This document shows, piece by piece, positions 26,373 to 62,222 of a DNA stretch of 64,000 nt. Within the stretch, counting starts at the first letter, position 1. Each line of letters starts with the position of its first letter. The notes beneath the pieces are model-generated. The model made no database searches, had not been told where the DNA came from, and saw nothing but the letters and a program-made list of their open reading frames with translations. The stretch comes from Pseudoruegeria sp. SK021. GTDB taxonomy: Bacteria; Pseudomonadota; Alphaproteobacteria; Rhodobacterales; Rhodobacteraceae. The position numbers and the translations under genes were made by a program. The stretch lies in contig NZ_MTBG01000001.1 of the NCBI RefSeq assembly GCF_002119405.1, positions 124,001 through 188,000 of the forward strand, written 5' to 3'.

Positions 26373-26789
26373 ATGTTGTCGATTGGCACCCTGTCCAAGC
26401 GTACCGGCGTCAAGGTGCCGACCATTCGCTACTACGAACAGGTCGGACTTCTGGCCGCGCCGGAACGCACCGACGGCAATCAGCGCCGCTATGGCCCGGC
26501 CCAACTGGAACGGCTCGGCTTCATCCGCCATGCCCGCGATCTGGGGTTCTCGATTGAGGCGATCTCGGCCCTGATCGATCTGCAAGACCATCCCGACCGG
26601 TCCTGCGTCACCGCCAATGCCATCGCCCGCACCCAACTATCCGATGTCCGCGAAAAGATCGCCCGGTTGCAACGGCTAGAGACCGAACTGGCGCGGATCA
26701 CCACCCGCTGCGAAGGTCAGGGCGTGGCGCAAAATTGCTATGTCCTTGCCTCGCTCGCCGATCACGGCTTTTGCGAAACCGAACATTAG
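26373..26789 (+). CDS. MerR-family metal-responsive regulator
   Basis: 138 aa. The N-terminal HTH is SIGTLSKRTGVKVPTIRYYE, followed by RRYGPAQLERLGFIRHARDL and a dimerisation helix. The C-terminal part has CVTANAIARTQL, a cysteine in TRCEGQGVAQNCYV and another in DHGFCETEH; these cysteines/histidines could bind a divalent metal, although the spacing is not exactly that of ZntR or CueR. Divergent from the CDF exporter and next to the MerR-type promoter it presumably controls. Confidence 0.85.
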   Translation: MLSIGTLSKRTGVKVPTIRYYEQVGLLAAPERTDGNQRRYGPAQLERLGFIRHARDLGFSIEAISALIDLQDHPDRSCVTANAIARTQLSDVREKIARLQRLETELARITTRCEGQGVAQNCYVLASLADHGFCETEH

Positions 26790-26802
26790 CCCGACCGCCC
26801 AA

Positions 26803-27993
26803 GTGCCGCTTCGAATCTCAAACCGTGCTGCCCGCGCCCTGTGGCTGTCGCAACAGGGGCTGGCCAGCCCGCCCACTGGGCCGCTCGACCTGCCCCGGCT
26901 GATCGACCAGCTCGGCTTTGTGCAACTTGATTCGATTCAGGTCGTCGCTCGGGCCCAGCACCACATCCTCTGGTCGCGCAATCAGTCCTACCGCGAACCG
27001 ATGCTGGATGCCTGCCTCGCCCGCGACCGCGCCATCTTTGAACATTTCACCCATGACGCCTCGGTCCTGCCGATGTCGTTCCTGCCCCTGTGGCGGCGAC
27101 AGTTCGACCGCAAGGCACAGCACATGGCCCGGGCGGGCTGGATCAAAGACCTGCCAGACGCCGCCGCGCGCGCCGTCATCAAGGCCCGCATCGCCGCCGA
27201 AGGCCCGCTGTCGACCCACGCATTTGACACCAAGGTCAGCGGCCCCCGGAAAATGTGGTCGCGGCCGCCCCACAAGCTGGCGCTGGATTACATGTGGTAC
27301 AGCGGTGAGCTGGCCACCTGCCACCGGGTGAATTTCAACAAATATTATGATCTGGCCGAGCGGGTGTTCCCGGCCCATCTGCGCGATCAGTGCCTGCCCG
27401 AGCAGGACCAGATCGACGGGCTGTGTCATGCCGCCCTCACCCGGCTGGGCATGGGCACGCTGGGCGAGATACAGAAATTCTGGGACGCCGTGACCCCGGC
27501 CGAGGTCCGCGCATGGGCCAACCGGCACGGCCCCAGCCTGCGCCCGGTTCTGATAGAAAGCGCACAGGGCGATTGGACCCCGGCGCTGGCACCGGTCGAC
27601 ATCGAAACCCGCTTGGCCGCCCTGACCGCCCCCAGCACCCGCACCCGCATCCTGAACCCGTTCGATCCGGCCATCCGTGACCGCAGCCGCCTGAGCCGCC
27701 TGTTCGGCTTTGACTATCGGGTCGAGATGTTCGTGCCCGCCGCCAAACGCCTCTGGGGCTATTACGTTTTCCCGATCCTCGAAGGCCACCGCTTCACCGG
27801 GCGGATTGAGGTCAAGGCCGACCGGGCCCGCTCTGTCCTGACGGTGCTGAACCTCTGGCCGGAACCGGGGATGGCGTGGCCCGCGGCCCGCCACGACCGG
27901 CTAAGGGCCGAGCTGGACCGCATGGCCCGGTTCATTGGCGTTGCACAGGTGGTCTGGGACACCCCCGAAACCGGTCCGACGAAAGTCCGATAA
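26803..27993 (+). CDS. YcaQ/HTH_42-family winged-helix protein, putative DNA glycosylase
   Basis: 396 aa from the GTG at 26803; an ATG at 26740 would overlap the MerR gene by 50 bp. Family features are LGFVQLDSIQVVARAQHHIL, WSRNQSYR, FEHFTHDASVLPM and the C-terminal PFDPAIRDRSRLSRLFGFDY then MFVPAAKRLWGYYVFPILEG. E. coli YcaQ and actinobacterial AlkZ unhook DNA crosslinks through a QxQ/QxD motif; here the equivalent segment is QLDSIQVVARAQH. The last codons and the TAA stop lie inside the 43-bp dispersed repeat, so its natural C-terminus may have been altered. Confidence 0.75.
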   Translation: MPLRISNRAARALWLSQQGLASPPTGPLDLPRLIDQLGFVQLDSIQVVARAQHHILWSRNQSYREPMLDACLARDRAIFEHFTHDASVLPMSFLPLWRRQFDRKAQHMARAGWIKDLPDAAARAVIKARIAAEGPLSTHAFDTKVSGPRKMWSRPPHKLALDYMWYSGELATCHRVNFNKYYDLAERVFPAHLRDQCLPEQDQIDGLCHAALTRLGMGTLGEIQKFWDAVTPAEVRAWANRHGPSLRPVLIESAQGDWTPALAPVDIETRLAALTAPSTRTRILNPFDPAIRDRSRLSRLFGFDYRVEMFVPAAKRLWGYYVFPILEGHRFTGRIEVKADRARSVLTVLNLWPEPGMAWPAARHDRLRAELDRMARFIGVAQVVWDTPETGPTKVR

Positions 27994-28014
27994 AAGTCCG
28001 ACGATTGTCCGACG
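27972..28014 (+). repeat. 43-bp dispersed repeat, copy A (four GTCCGAY cores, 11-bp period)
   Basis: Four cores GTCCGAC, GTCCGAT, GTCCGAC, GTCCGAC spaced 11 bp apart and separated by AAA, ATT-type linkers. All 43 bases are identical to the reverse complement of 60681-60723. This copy covers the stop of the YcaQ-like gene and lies between it and the convergent FAD-linked dehydrogenase gene (stop at 28032). Confidence 0.9.
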
Positions 28015-28031: not shown

Positions 28032-29453
28032 TCAGCCCCTTAGCACCGCCCCAGGGTTCATGATGCCCTGAGGGTCCAGCGCCGTCTTGATCGCCCGCAT
28101 CGCCGCCAATCGCGCCGGATCGCCATAGCGCTCTAACTCACCGACCTTCAGCCGCCCGATGCCATGTTCTGCGCTGACCGATCCGCCATGCTGATGCACA
28201 AGGTCATGAATCGCCTGCATAATCTGGTCGCGCTGACCCACGTAATCGGATTTCTTTCCACCCTTGGGCGGAAACACGTTGAAATGCAGATTGCCGTCGC
28301 CCATATGGCCAAAGCAATTCACCCGGAACGGGCCTAATCCTTCAACCAGTTGAAATCCCTCTGAAATAAATTCAGCCAAGGCCCCAAGCGGCACCGAAAC
28401 ATCATGGGACGAGATCGCCCCGATCCGGCTATTGCCCTCGGGAATGGTCTCGCGCACCGCCCAGAAGGCCTGTTTCTGGCCCACGGACTCAGCGATGACC
28501 CCGTCAGTCACCAGCCCCTTTTCCAGCGCGATTTCAAAGACTTCCAGCATGGCATCCTGGGCACTCTGATCGCCATGCAGCCCCAGTTCCACCAACACCG
28601 ACCATTCCGGCGGCGTCCCAAATGGCAATCGCAACTCTGGCATGGTCTCAGTCAAAAAGGCCATGCCCTGACCGTGGATCAGCTCAAACGCCGACACGCC
28701 CTCGCCGACGCGGTCGTGAAAAAGATGCAACAGCGCCAATGCGTTACTCGGCGAATCCACCACGAAATACGCCACAGCGTCCGACGCGGGCCGCTGATAC
28801 AGCCGCAGGCTAGCGGCGGTAATAATCCCCAGCGTCCCCTCTGACCCGATCAGCAAGTTGCGCAGATCATAGCCGGTATTGTCCTTCCTCAGCCGCTTCA
28901 GCCCATGCCAGATCGACCCATCCGGCAGCACGGCCTCCAACCCCAGACACAGGTCCCGGGCATTGCCGTACCGCAGCACGTTCACCCCACCGGCATTGGT
29001 CGCCAGATTGCCGCCGATCCGGCAGGACCCTTCCGAGGCCAGCGACAACGGAAACAGCAACCCCGCCGCCTCAGCCGCCATCCGGACCTCATGCAATGTG
29101 GCACCCGCTTCGGAAATCAAAATGTTTTCGTCGGGATAGACCGCACGAATGGCCCGCATCCGTTCCAGTGACAGCACGATCGGCGCGGCGCCGTCAGGCT
29201 TAATCTGACCGCCCACCAGCCCGGTTCCACCGCCATAGGGCACCACAGGCACCGCCGCATCCGACGCCGCCCGCACGATCAGGGCGACCTCGTCCACGGT
29301 GCTTGGCGCAACCACGCCCGCCGCCTGCCCCTGAAAGCGCCCGCGCGGCTCTTCCAGATAGGCGGGACCAAGTGGCCGGAATGTGGCTGCGGGCAAAGTC
29401 TGTGTCAGGCGCTCTAGAAGGCGCGCCGCGTCGCTGTCGGTTTCAGTCATCAT
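28032..29453 (-). CDS. FAD-linked 2-hydroxyacid dehydrogenase (GlcD/D-lactate dehydrogenase type)
   Basis: 473 aa from the ATG at 29453 (an ATG at 29450 also fits). PCMH-type FAD-binding domain: VVPYGGGTGLVGGQ, SEGSCRIGGNLATNAGG and IGSEGTLGIITAASL. C-terminal substrate domain: CFGHMGDGNLHFNVFPP with metal-binding histidines, and SAEHGIGRLKVGELE. Substrate could be D-lactate, glycolate or D-2-hydroxyglutarate; no glcE/glcF partners are nearby. It overlaps the upstream metallo-beta-lactamase-fold gene by 11 bp. Confidence 0.85.
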   Translation of the reverse strand: MMTETDSDAARLLERLTQTLPAATFRPLGPAYLEEPRGRFQGQAAGVVAPSTVDEVALIVRAASDAAVPVVPYGGGTGLVGGQIKPDGAAPIVLSLERMRAIRAVYPDENILISEAGATLHEVRMAAEAAGLLFPLSLASEGSCRIGGNLATNAGGVNVLRYGNARDLCLGLEAVLPDGSIWHGLKRLRKDNTGYDLRNLLIGSEGTLGIITAASLRLYQRPASDAVAYFVVDSPSNALALLHLFHDRVGEGVSAFELIHGQGMAFLTETMPELRLPFGTPPEWSVLVELGLHGDQSAQDAMLEVFEIALEKGLVTDGVIAESVGQKQAFWAVRETIPEGNSRIGAISSHDVSVPLGALAEFISEGFQLVEGLGPFRVNCFGHMGDGNLHFNVFPPKGGKKSDYVGQRDQIMQAIHDLVHQHGGSVSAEHGIGRLKVGELERYGDPARLAAMRAIKTALDPQGIMNPGAVLRG

Positions 29454-60291: not shown

Positions 60292-60669
60292 ATGGACAAG
60301 TACCCTTCTGAAAACGTTCTTGGCCTGCCGCTGGCCCCCTGTTCGCACGATCCGGTCACCGGATTTTTCCGCAATGGCTGTTGCGACAGCAGCGCGGCAG
60401 ATCGGGGTAGCCACACGGTCTGCGCGGTGGTGACCGCAGAATTTCTGGCTTTTTCCAAATACTTGGGCAATGACCTCAGCACCCCGCGCCCGGAGTTTGG
60501 CTTCACGGGCTTGCGCGATGGCGATCAGTGGTGCCTGTGCGCCGCGCGATTCTTGCAGGCGCATGAGGAAGGTGTGGCCCCGTTTGTCCGCTTGTCCGCA
60601 ACCCATCGGGCCGCGCTGGATGTGGTGCCGCTGGAGATTTTGCAGTCCTACGCCGTGCCTGAATCCTGA
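60292..60669 (+). CDS. DUF2237 family protein
   Basis: 125 aa. NVLGLPLAPCSHDPVTGFFR, GCCDSSAADRGSHTVCAVVT, and NDLSTPRPEFGFTGLRDGDQ then WCLCAARFLQA: the cysteine-rich conserved core of DUF2237, whose function is not known. Only 20 bp after pth, so probably co-transcribed. Copy B of the dispersed repeat begins 12 bp after its stop. Confidence 0.87.
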   Translation: MDKYPSENVLGLPLAPCSHDPVTGFFRNGCCDSSAADRGSHTVCAVVTAEFLAFSKYLGNDLSTPRPEFGFTGLRDGDQWCLCAARFLQAHEEGVAPFVRLSATHRAALDVVPLEILQSYAVPES

Positions 60670-60680
60670 GGCCGAGCGGT

Positions 60681-60723
60681 CGTCGGACAATCGTCGGACT
60701 TTTATCGGACTTTCGTCGGACCG
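60681..60723 (-). repeat. 43-bp dispersed repeat, copy B (inverted relative to copy A)
   Basis: On the minus strand it is identical over all 43 bases to 27972-28014: four GTCCGAY cores with an 11-bp period. Identity ends abruptly at the 3' side (CCG in A, ACC in B); at the 5' side one mismatch precedes three further shared bases. It lies 12 bp after the DUF2237 stop, between genes that converge. Confidence 0.9.
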
Positions 60724-60933
60724 ATTTGCGGACCAATGTGCGGGCCTCTGATCAGTGGGACCGTGCAGCACGTCCCTCGCCCGCGCCGTTTACCAGCAGC
60801 GTGCTGACCCGCCGGATCATCGCCGCCAATATAGGCCGCAGTTGGTGCCGATTACGGGCGGTCATGATCGAAGTTGGGGGTGGGCTATCGCCTGCCAGAG
60901 GCCGCGATCGCTGACACGACCCGGCATATGCGG

Positions 60934-60970
60934 GACGGCGGCCAGATCACGCGCTGATCTGGCCGCCGTC
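60934..60970 (-). terminator. long hairpin after trpB
   Basis: GACGGCGGCCAGATCA (60934-60949), loop CGCGC, TGATCTGGCCGCCGTC (60955-60970): a 16-bp perfect stem 20 bp beyond the trpB stop. No T-run on either side; likely stops or protects the trpB transcript end. Confidence 0.6.
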
Positions 60971-60989
60971 GGGGCAATGTCGGGGCGCC

Positions 60990-62222
60990 TTAAGCGCCGG
61001 TGTTCATATCCAGACCAAGCGCTTTGGCGACGGTGAAGATGTCTTTGTCGCCACGGCCGCACATGTTCATGCAGATCAGGTGATCCTTAGGCAGTTCGGG
61101 CGCGATTTTCAGGACATGCGCCAGCGCGTGGGAAGGTTCCAGCGCCGGAATGATGCCTTCTAGCGCACAGCAGACTTGGAACGCGTCCAGCGCCTCTTTG
61201 TCGGTGATCGACACATATTTGGCGCGGCCAATTTCGTGCAGCCATGCGTGTTCCGGGCCGATGCCGGGATAATCCAGACCCGCAGAGATCGAGTGCCCTT
61301 CGAGGATCTGACCATCGTCATCCTGAAGCAGATAGGTGCGGTTGCCATGCAGCACGCCGGGGCGACCGCCGGTCAACGAGGCGCAATGCTCCATCTTGGC
61401 GTTGACGCCGTGGCCACCGGCCTCGACCCCGATCACCGCGACCTCTTTATCGTCAAGGAACGGATAGAACAGACCCATGGCGTTCGAACCACCGCCGATG
61501 GCCGCAATCACCGTATCGGGCAGACGGCCTTCTTGGGCCTGCATCTGCTCTTTGGCTTCCTTGCCGATGATCGACTGGAAATCGCGGACCATGGCCGGAT
61601 AGGGGTGCGGCCCCGCCACGGTGCCAATGCAATAGAAGGTATCGCGGACATTGGTCACCCAGTCGCGCAGGGCGTCGTTCATGGCGTCCTTGAGGGTACC
61701 GCGCCCAGAGGTCACCGGGATCACTTCGGCCCCCAGCAGGCGCATGCGGAAAACGTTGGGCGATTGCCGCTCAACATCATGCGCGCCCATATAGACGATG
61801 CATTTCAGGCCGAACTTGGCACAGACCGTCGCCGTGGCCACGCCGTGCTGCCCGGCCCCGGTTTCGGCGATGATCCGGGTCTTGCCCATGCGCATCGCCA
61901 GCAGGATCTGCCCCAGCACGTTGTTGATCTTATGGGCGCCGGTGTGGTTCAGCTCGTCGCGCTTGAGATAGATTTTCGCGCCGCCGCAATGGTCGGTCAG
62001 GCGTTCCGCGAAATACAGCGGGCTGGGCCGGCCGACATAATTGGTCCACAGATCATCCATCTGCGCCCAGAAGCTGTCATCGGTCTTGGCGTGCTCGTAC
62101 TGGGCCTCAAGCTCCAGGATCAGGGGCATGAGGGTTTCCGACACGAAACGTCCGCCGAAATCGCCAAAGCGGCCGTTCTCGTCGGGTCCGGTCATGAAGC
62201 TGTTAAAAAGGTCTTCCGGCAT
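60990..62222 (-). CDS. trpB: tryptophan synthase beta chain
   Basis: Condenses indole with serine. 410 aa. The PLP lysine is K98 in [53 protein letters not shown] and [16 protein letters not shown] are typical. 83 bp after trpF. The alpha subunit gene is not adjacent in the window. Confidence 0.97.

Follow-up and report, generated by a model that had tools for sequence, protein, structure and literature searches.

Oriented arrays of four 11-bp-spaced units with lineage-specific cores in Rhodobacteraceae: putative binding sites of a co-evolving, chromosome-acting protein

What is a short element that occurs twice, letter for letter and in opposite orientation, in one stretch of the chromosome of Pseudoruegeria sp. 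SK021? The stretch, here called the window, comprises 64,000 nucleotides (positions 124,001 to 188,000 of contig NZ_MTBG01000001.1, numbered from 1 below). Positions 27972–28014 on the plus strand equal the reverse complement of 60681–60723 at every base, as the preliminary description of this DNA had claimed, and the alignment of the two copies extends to 47 nt with 98% identity (27968–28014 and 60681–60727). Also in agreement with that description, both copies consist of four GTCCGAC/T units at an 11-bp pitch: GTCCGAC, GTCCGAT, GTCCGAC, and GTCCGAC, separated by GAAA, AAAA, and GATT, respectively. The pair pattern of GTCCGAY, with at most two mismatches, has nine matches in the window against 2.35 expected, and none of 100 shuffles reaches nine. 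The positions of the units and of the adjacent genes are given in Table 1. Copy 1 shares the final 20 nt of the AlkZ-like open reading frame, the stop codon of which lies across the end of unit 2; the trpB-like gene, the product of which we take, by eye, to be the tryptophan synthase beta chain, ends 268 bp away from copy 2. Just past the end of the latter gene, at 60917–60987, there is a 33-nt imperfect inverted repeat (79%) with arms 5 nt apart, possibly the terminator of this gene.

Table 1. The two arrays of the window and the genes next to them.
Feature	Positions	Strand	Details
Array copy 1	27974..28013	+	GTCCGAY units at 27974-27980, 27985-27991, 27996-28002, 28007-28013
Array copy 2	60682..60721	-	GTCCGAY units, in order, at 60715-60721, 60704-60710, 60693-60699, 60682-60688
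DNA glycosylase AlkZ-like gene (PF06224)	26740..27993	+	3' end enters copy 1
FAD-linked oxidase gene (PF02913/PF01565)	28032..29453	-	adjoins copy 1
DUF2237 protein gene (PF09996)	60292..60669	+	terminates 12 bp ahead of copy 2
PALP enzyme gene (PF00291), trpB-like	60990..62222	-	neighbour of copy 2

The search of the host genome (G000; 3.97 Mb, 189 contigs) shows that the two copies belong to a large family, many copies being what the preliminary description had named as support. There are 99 exact matches to GTCCGAY-N4-GTCCGAY, 54 on one strand and 45 on the other, and none to the reversed pattern; with at most one mismatch, 138 pair matches are seen vs. 6 for the reversed control. The 99 matches form about 44 arrays, 43 of them within the stretches analysed. 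The element is 40 bp long and usually contains four units arranged head to tail, each made up of NTC-NN-AY and a 4-bp spacer, with a pitch of exactly 11 bp; four units are found in 35/43 arrays of G000, 14/18 of the sister species G004, and 20/22 of L. roseus, which belongs to a different genus. A de novo scan for arrays with any core yields, in the stretches analysed, 35 arrays of period 11 in G000, 17 in L. roseus, and 16 in G004, and no four-unit arrays at ten other periods. Hence, 11 bp is the only one of 11 scanned periods that gives four-unit arrays, which supports the helical phasing proposed earlier.

Information content is high in the four units and mostly low outside them. In the flanks, G is preferred immediately ahead of the array (64–91%), as is C two bases past its end in G000 and G004. 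The spacers are mostly RNRA, the third one being looser, and within one species they are partly uniform by position. The last unit is the most variable, often TTCCGAY in G004 and TCCGAA in L. roseus.

As for the genomic context, 40 of the 43 G000 arrays lie outside genes, while about 12% of the analysed DNA is intergenic (coding regions were called with a home-made ORF finder, and some of the arrays counted as lying outside genes extend into a gene end, by about 20 nt at most). The directions of the flanking genes are ++ for 11 arrays, -- for 10, -+ for 10, and +- for 8; one array is at a contig edge, and three are inside genes. Both window copies lie between convergent gene ends, as had been noted, but this placement is not general, since the arrays ignore gene direction: 8 of the 39 intergenic arrays are convergent, where intergenic length predicts 15% (p = 0.36), so that convergent sites are not depleted either. 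On these counts we reject a terminator or convergent-end signal, and the transcription-end signal suggested in the preliminary description is not supported. In G000 (median distances 52 vs. 116) and G004 (30 vs. 103), but not in L. roseus (30 vs. 32), genes are closer to the 3' end of the array than to its 5' end. Many arrays adjoin conserved housekeeping genes; the neighbours include genes that we identified by eye as, presumably, ffh, dnaX, smc, serS, thrS, aspS, argG, carB, and pyrG, and, by protein family matches, serA and murB.

The arrays are oriented relative to the local GC skew. The skew of the surrounding 11–20 kb, taken along the GTCCGAY strand, is negative for 35/43 arrays of G000 (p = 4e-5), 14/18 arrays of G004, all having room for long flanks (p = 0.03), and 16/22 arrays of L. 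roseus, including one intragenic match of two units, possibly due to chance (p = 0.05). In the pooled set, where arrays at sites common to several species are non-independent, the GTCCGAY strand is C-rich for 65/83 arrays vs. 325/579 isolated GTCCGAY cores from the same loci (153/279 in G000, 91/144 in G004, 81/156 in L. roseus; Fisher p = 1.1e-4). The skewed orientation that the preliminary description had named as support is thus seen, as a bias of 78%, with local GC skew serving as the proxy for replication direction; copy 1 is oriented like the majority, and copy 2 goes against it. The majority gene strand agrees with array orientation in 22/43, 7/18, and 15/22 cases in G000, G004, and L. 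roseus, respectively. Arrays with AT-type cores, described below, follow the skew in 8/8 cases in G002, 7/10 in G003, and 3/4 in G006 (18/22 in total), as measured on 3-kb loci only, some of which overlap.

The octamer GGGNAGGG, used as a control in the same loci, is skewed in 127/140 cases in G000, 45/57 in G004, and 44/70 in L. roseus. KOPS (FtsK orienting polar sequences) are single G-rich octamers, GGGNAGGG, that are scattered along the chromosome and have an orientation tied to replication. The arrays resemble KOPS in being dispersed and biased in orientation by local GC skew; unlike KOPS, they are built of GTCCGAY or GTCATAY units, GGGNAGGG being a separate motif in the same loci, and KOPS are not known to form 4x11 arrays or to have lineage dialects.

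The family is patchily distributed. Among 61 genomes (the host and 60 relatives), GTCCGAY pairs are abundant only in G000 (99) and G004 (48). At least one pair is present in 44 of 394 genomes of the family, with high counts only in G000 (99), G094 (68), G201 (40), and G198 (32), and 4–7 pairs in six others; the reversed control gives 6 matches in one genome and no more than 2 in any other. By their counts, G201 and G094 correspond to Litoreibacter roseus K6 (L. roseus above) and MAG Bpl_10, respectively. A dialect-agnostic pattern, which undercounts because it demands RNRA spacers, matches 15 of the 394 genomes, while its reversed control matches one genome, twice. No arrays were found in G005, placed in the same genus, nor did the de novo four-unit scan of about 400 kb of this genome yield any. 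On the valS tree, array presence needs four changes, and none of 500 shuffles is as low; given these four changes and the position of G005 outside the clade, we therefore make no claim of a single origin. An element with only two copies in the genome, none in relatives, and no positional bias, which the preliminary description had named as the outcome that would speak against its proposal, is excluded.

The array sites are partly shared between species. The comparison of 130 arrays from 17 genomes (one to 43 arrays each) yields 64 cross-genome pairs located beside homologous sequence and forming 21 clusters. Orientation is kept in 61 of these pairs, flipped in two, and unclear in one; it is kept in 18/21 clusters. 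A single site inside valS, shared by eight genomes, accounts for 28 of the 64 pairs. The array sites of G000 are occupied by 9/23 arrays of G004 and 6/22 arrays of L. roseus, one of the latter six being a doubtful two-unit match, vs. about 0.3 expected in each case if some 3,500 gaps are assumed to be equally likely. An earlier, loose orthology based on unfiltered tblastx flagged 20/21 G004 arrays, mostly spuriously, and was superseded by a strict graph. Most array sites are not common to species: when four G000 sites were looked up in relatives, G004 had an array at one of them and the other species examined had none; this comparison did not yield a clean empty site with boundaries. Several intergenic sites in the relatives G001, G004, and G003 (L271, L272, L274, L266) carry another motif, GACGGGCGGGAG or the complement of it, within sequence that is partly palindromic, and some of these sites are located where G000 has an array.

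The window copies differ in this respect. At the site of copy 1, G004 has an array on the same side of the gene, in the same orientation but with different letters; the homologue of the FAD-linked oxidase gene in G004 likewise ends next to an array. An array also accompanies the gene block adjacent to copy 2 in G004 and G003, but there the block is inverted relative to the array, hence copy 2 is not a clean orthologous site. The preliminary description had taken the identity of the two copies to imply recent spread or strong constraint. Constraint on the core is indeed strong, as detailed below; the identity alone is no evidence of recent spread, because the G004 array at the copy 1 site has different letters. 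As copy 1 occupies a shared site, its present letters would reflect uniformity within the genome, maintained by selection or by homogenisation.

The array in valS is in frame, following LWNAVRFAEMNGVY in G000, and occupies the same place in L. roseus. A recognisable valS array is present in 8 of 31 genomes (G000, G004, L. roseus, G392, G094, G002, G003, and G006). Among the others, the valS linker has a similar peptide in G198, one leftover unit in G163, and an 11-bp repeat with another core in G007; the linkers of all remaining genomes are different, as assessed on DNA for some and on peptides for others.

The valS array also reveals a change of core. GTCATAY is seen in three of its four units in G002 and G003, and TCCTAC in two of four in G006. 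The valS units led to the prediction of a genome-wide GTCATAY family, which was then found: 70 matches in G002, 14 in G003, 4 in G006, and 0–1 in the others, with no matches to the control in any of the seven genomes. The dialect-agnostic scan shows CG-, AT-, and CT-type units. CT units are found beside both CG and AT ones. The cores are near-uniform, 98–100% CG, in G000, G004, and L. roseus, and mixed in G002, G003, G006, G094, and G096. On the valS tree, constructed with the linker excluded and leaving out the AT genomes G176, G025, G227, G099, and G101, the AT-rich genomes G002, G003, and G006 form one clade nested in G000, G004, L. roseus, and G198. The dialects probably changed along the path from CG through CT to AT.

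In 35 orthologous pairs of the same dialect, core positions 2–6 are identical in 94, 97, 94, 89, and 98% of cases, respectively, vs. 42% for position 7 and 40–75% for the spacers. In 26 pairs of different dialects, identity is 97–98% at positions 2, 3, and 6, but 19% at positions 4–5 and 23% at spacer position 10; the 3' flank is 46% identical, both kinds of pairs combined. The core values are inflated, because the arrays were found through their cores and many pairs come from valS, although the valS site itself was examined regardless of the core pattern. Lineages differ in the core letters while the site, the orientation, and the 4x11 layout stay the same; neither lineage dialects nor shared positions were among the expectations of the preliminary description.

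We suggest that the arrays are binding sites of a putative co-evolving protein that acts on the chromosome, not on transcription, and consider the chances of this reading, with which most of the observations agree, to be about even (roughly 50%). Each 40-bp copy would present four head-to-tail NTC-NN-AY sites, about one per helical turn, to a predicted DNA-binding protein, whose monomers may sit side by side on one face of the DNA. The predicted reader would use the array as a polar address on the chromosome, in its organisation, in segregation, or in some other process linked to forks or translocases, and neighbouring promoters or terminators would not be its target. Its preference at positions 4–5 may have drifted (CG, CT, AT) in separate lineages, with the arrays following. 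Of the options listed in the preliminary description, a putative segregation- or nucleoid-type signal is the best class. A stronger version, a new chromosome-addressing system with some 45 polar four-site arrays, many of them inherited at constant positions across genera, and a fast-evolving putative reader whose shifts of specificity (CG, CT, AT) the sites would have followed without change of position or orientation, can be proposed only tentatively, the odds being somewhat against it; such a system would resemble a cross of KOPS, for polarity, and DNA uptake sequences, for dialects. Among the search results listed for the open-access literature, no title or abstract on the motif or the family was seen. 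If the reading holds, the arrays would be a natural record of dozens of dispersed sites changing together with the specificity of one protein, in which living species supply mixed intermediates and synteny identifies the sites, and would point to a new polar chromosome-level process in Rhodobacteraceae. With the lists of dialects and sites, the putative reader could be found by pull-down or by comparing genomes.

Among the alternatives, a non-autonomous dispersed repeat (REP- or MITE-like), whose copies then persisted or decayed, survives best, although we consider it unlikely. It agrees with the patchy occurrence over genera, the majority of sites not being common to species, the identical letters in distant copies such as those of the window, the spacers partly uniform by position within species, and the in-frame array inside valS; the orientation bias also agrees, as a mobile element inserting via the single-stranded lagging-strand template would acquire replication polarity. 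Mobility alone does not fit the shared positions, which keep their orientation with changed cores, patchiness being the part that does fit: many of the pairs with the same orientation differ in core, hence independent insertion would need an exact choice of both site and orientation. Moreover, inverted repeats are absent, G002 and G003 lack the imperfect stem seen in the CG dialect, clean empty sites with boundaries were not encountered, and the search of plasmid and phage records gave no match covering 80% of the 42-mer. Like REP/BIME elements, the arrays are short, intergenic, dispersed, and patchy; unlike them, they are non-palindromic direct repeats, with sites common across genera and orientation kept.

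Operators of a transcription factor recognising 11-bp direct repeats (of the OmpR/PhoB or ribbon-helix-helix type), with a regulon of about 45 operons, are a rather improbable explanation. The PHO box consists of heptamer direct repeats with a 4-nt spacer, arranged head to tail with an 11-bp pitch (PMC3131613); the arrays have the same layout of 7-nt repeats and 4-nt spacers, and GTCATAY of the AT dialect resembles the GTCAT core. Four genomes also have one array upstream of a gene of the BrnA family. Still, the CTGTCAT core of the PHO box is absent, the units being GTCCGAY or GTCATAY with mostly RNRA spacers, and the arrays have four units at tens of sites with no tie to promoters. A promoter or transcript reading does not fit the indifference of the arrays to gene direction: orientation tracks GC skew rather than genes, convergent intergenic sites are occupied as well, and three of the 43 arrays, including the valS one, are inside genes. 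In addition, no PF00486 family is present in four array-bearing genomes and absent from three array-less ones, as judged from 70 of the 81 matches in these seven genomes (the omitted 11 being 6 from G030, 2 from G016, and 3 from G004). Separately, we observed a CtrA-like DNA-binding domain without a receiver (126 aa; G000 L477:738-1118, minus strand) upstream of ffh, and a similar short receiver-less domain in G004; no such form is seen among the PF00486 matches of G002 or L. roseus.

Self-recognition marks for DNA uptake or gene transfer seem very unlikely. The DNA uptake sequences of Neisseriaceae occur as dialects (PMC3630211), and the arrays are similar in having a short species-typical core, changed genome-wide between related lineages; a clade-wise change in one clade and arrays beside core genes also agree with this function. 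The uptake sequences number thousands per genome, whereas here 99 pair matches form about 44 mostly four-unit arrays with skew polarity, several species mix cores, and neither polarity nor four-unit arrays are necessary for uptake.

An RNA element or intrinsic terminator, with hairpins and GAAA loops between units, is largely refuted: units 1 and 2 of the CG dialect could pair except at the centre, but two further stem positions of these units pair in only 0–12% of the G002 and G003 arrays, and the hairpin is rejected because the stem is missing in these two genomes; unlike intrinsic terminators, the arrays have no conserved stem and are placed at random relative to transcription, and Rfam has no match in the window at the gathering threshold. 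Ordinary minisatellites produced by polymerase slippage, which in unrelated genomes do yield single perfect period-11 repeats with the same core, are already refuted as the origin of the Rhodobacteraceae arrays by the predominance of four units, the degenerate spacers vs. conserved cores, the dispersed copies, and the shared sites.

For the putative chromosome-acting reader, a BrnA-type protein is a possible candidate. A BrnA-family gene (PF14384, E-values from 1e-11 to 3e-13) is located at a shared array site in G000, G004, L. roseus, and G003; in all four it is arranged in the same way and starts some 60–90 bp away from the array. It was not seen in roughly 400 kb of G005. BrnA antitoxins are ribbon-helix-helix proteins. 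The AlphaFold2 model of the candidate, based on two sequences, is all helical with a mean pLDDT of 68, and such a weak model neither supports nor excludes the ribbon-helix-helix fold; the search for PDB relatives gave none below E = 0.1. The gene is only a lead, because the chance that at least one of the shared sites is adjacent to a DNA-binding gene is not small.

Period-11 arrays with the same core were also seen outside the family. A four-unit scan of contigs across phyla, run without the reversed control, yields 75 stretches, and a three-unit scan of viral sequences yields 34 vs. 16 for the reversed pattern. Many of the cross-phylum matches are single perfect minisatellites, while some genomes have many dispersed arrays; we do not claim that these belong to the same system as the Rhodobacteraceae arrays. 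The Bacteroidales MAGs RGIG9971 and RUG12032 have 66 and 23 GTCCGAY 11-bp pair matches, respectively, with none for the control. In RGIG9971 (L097, L098, L109, L110, L114, L122, L143), an inverted unit terminates several arrays, which have flanking sequence in common and therefore look like part of a longer dispersed repeat; in RUG12032, GTCCGAY 11-bp arrays are found in L072, L088, L116, and L118. Terriglobia SRVP_36 (L078, L104, L106) has 35 pair matches, mostly GTCCGAC-CCCG, and the three arrays examined end in an inverted unit; these arrays are probably a separate, hairpin-type repeat. Finally, the viral contigs L150, L153, and L164 contain many GTCCGAC units with mixed spacings, including 8 and 11 bp.
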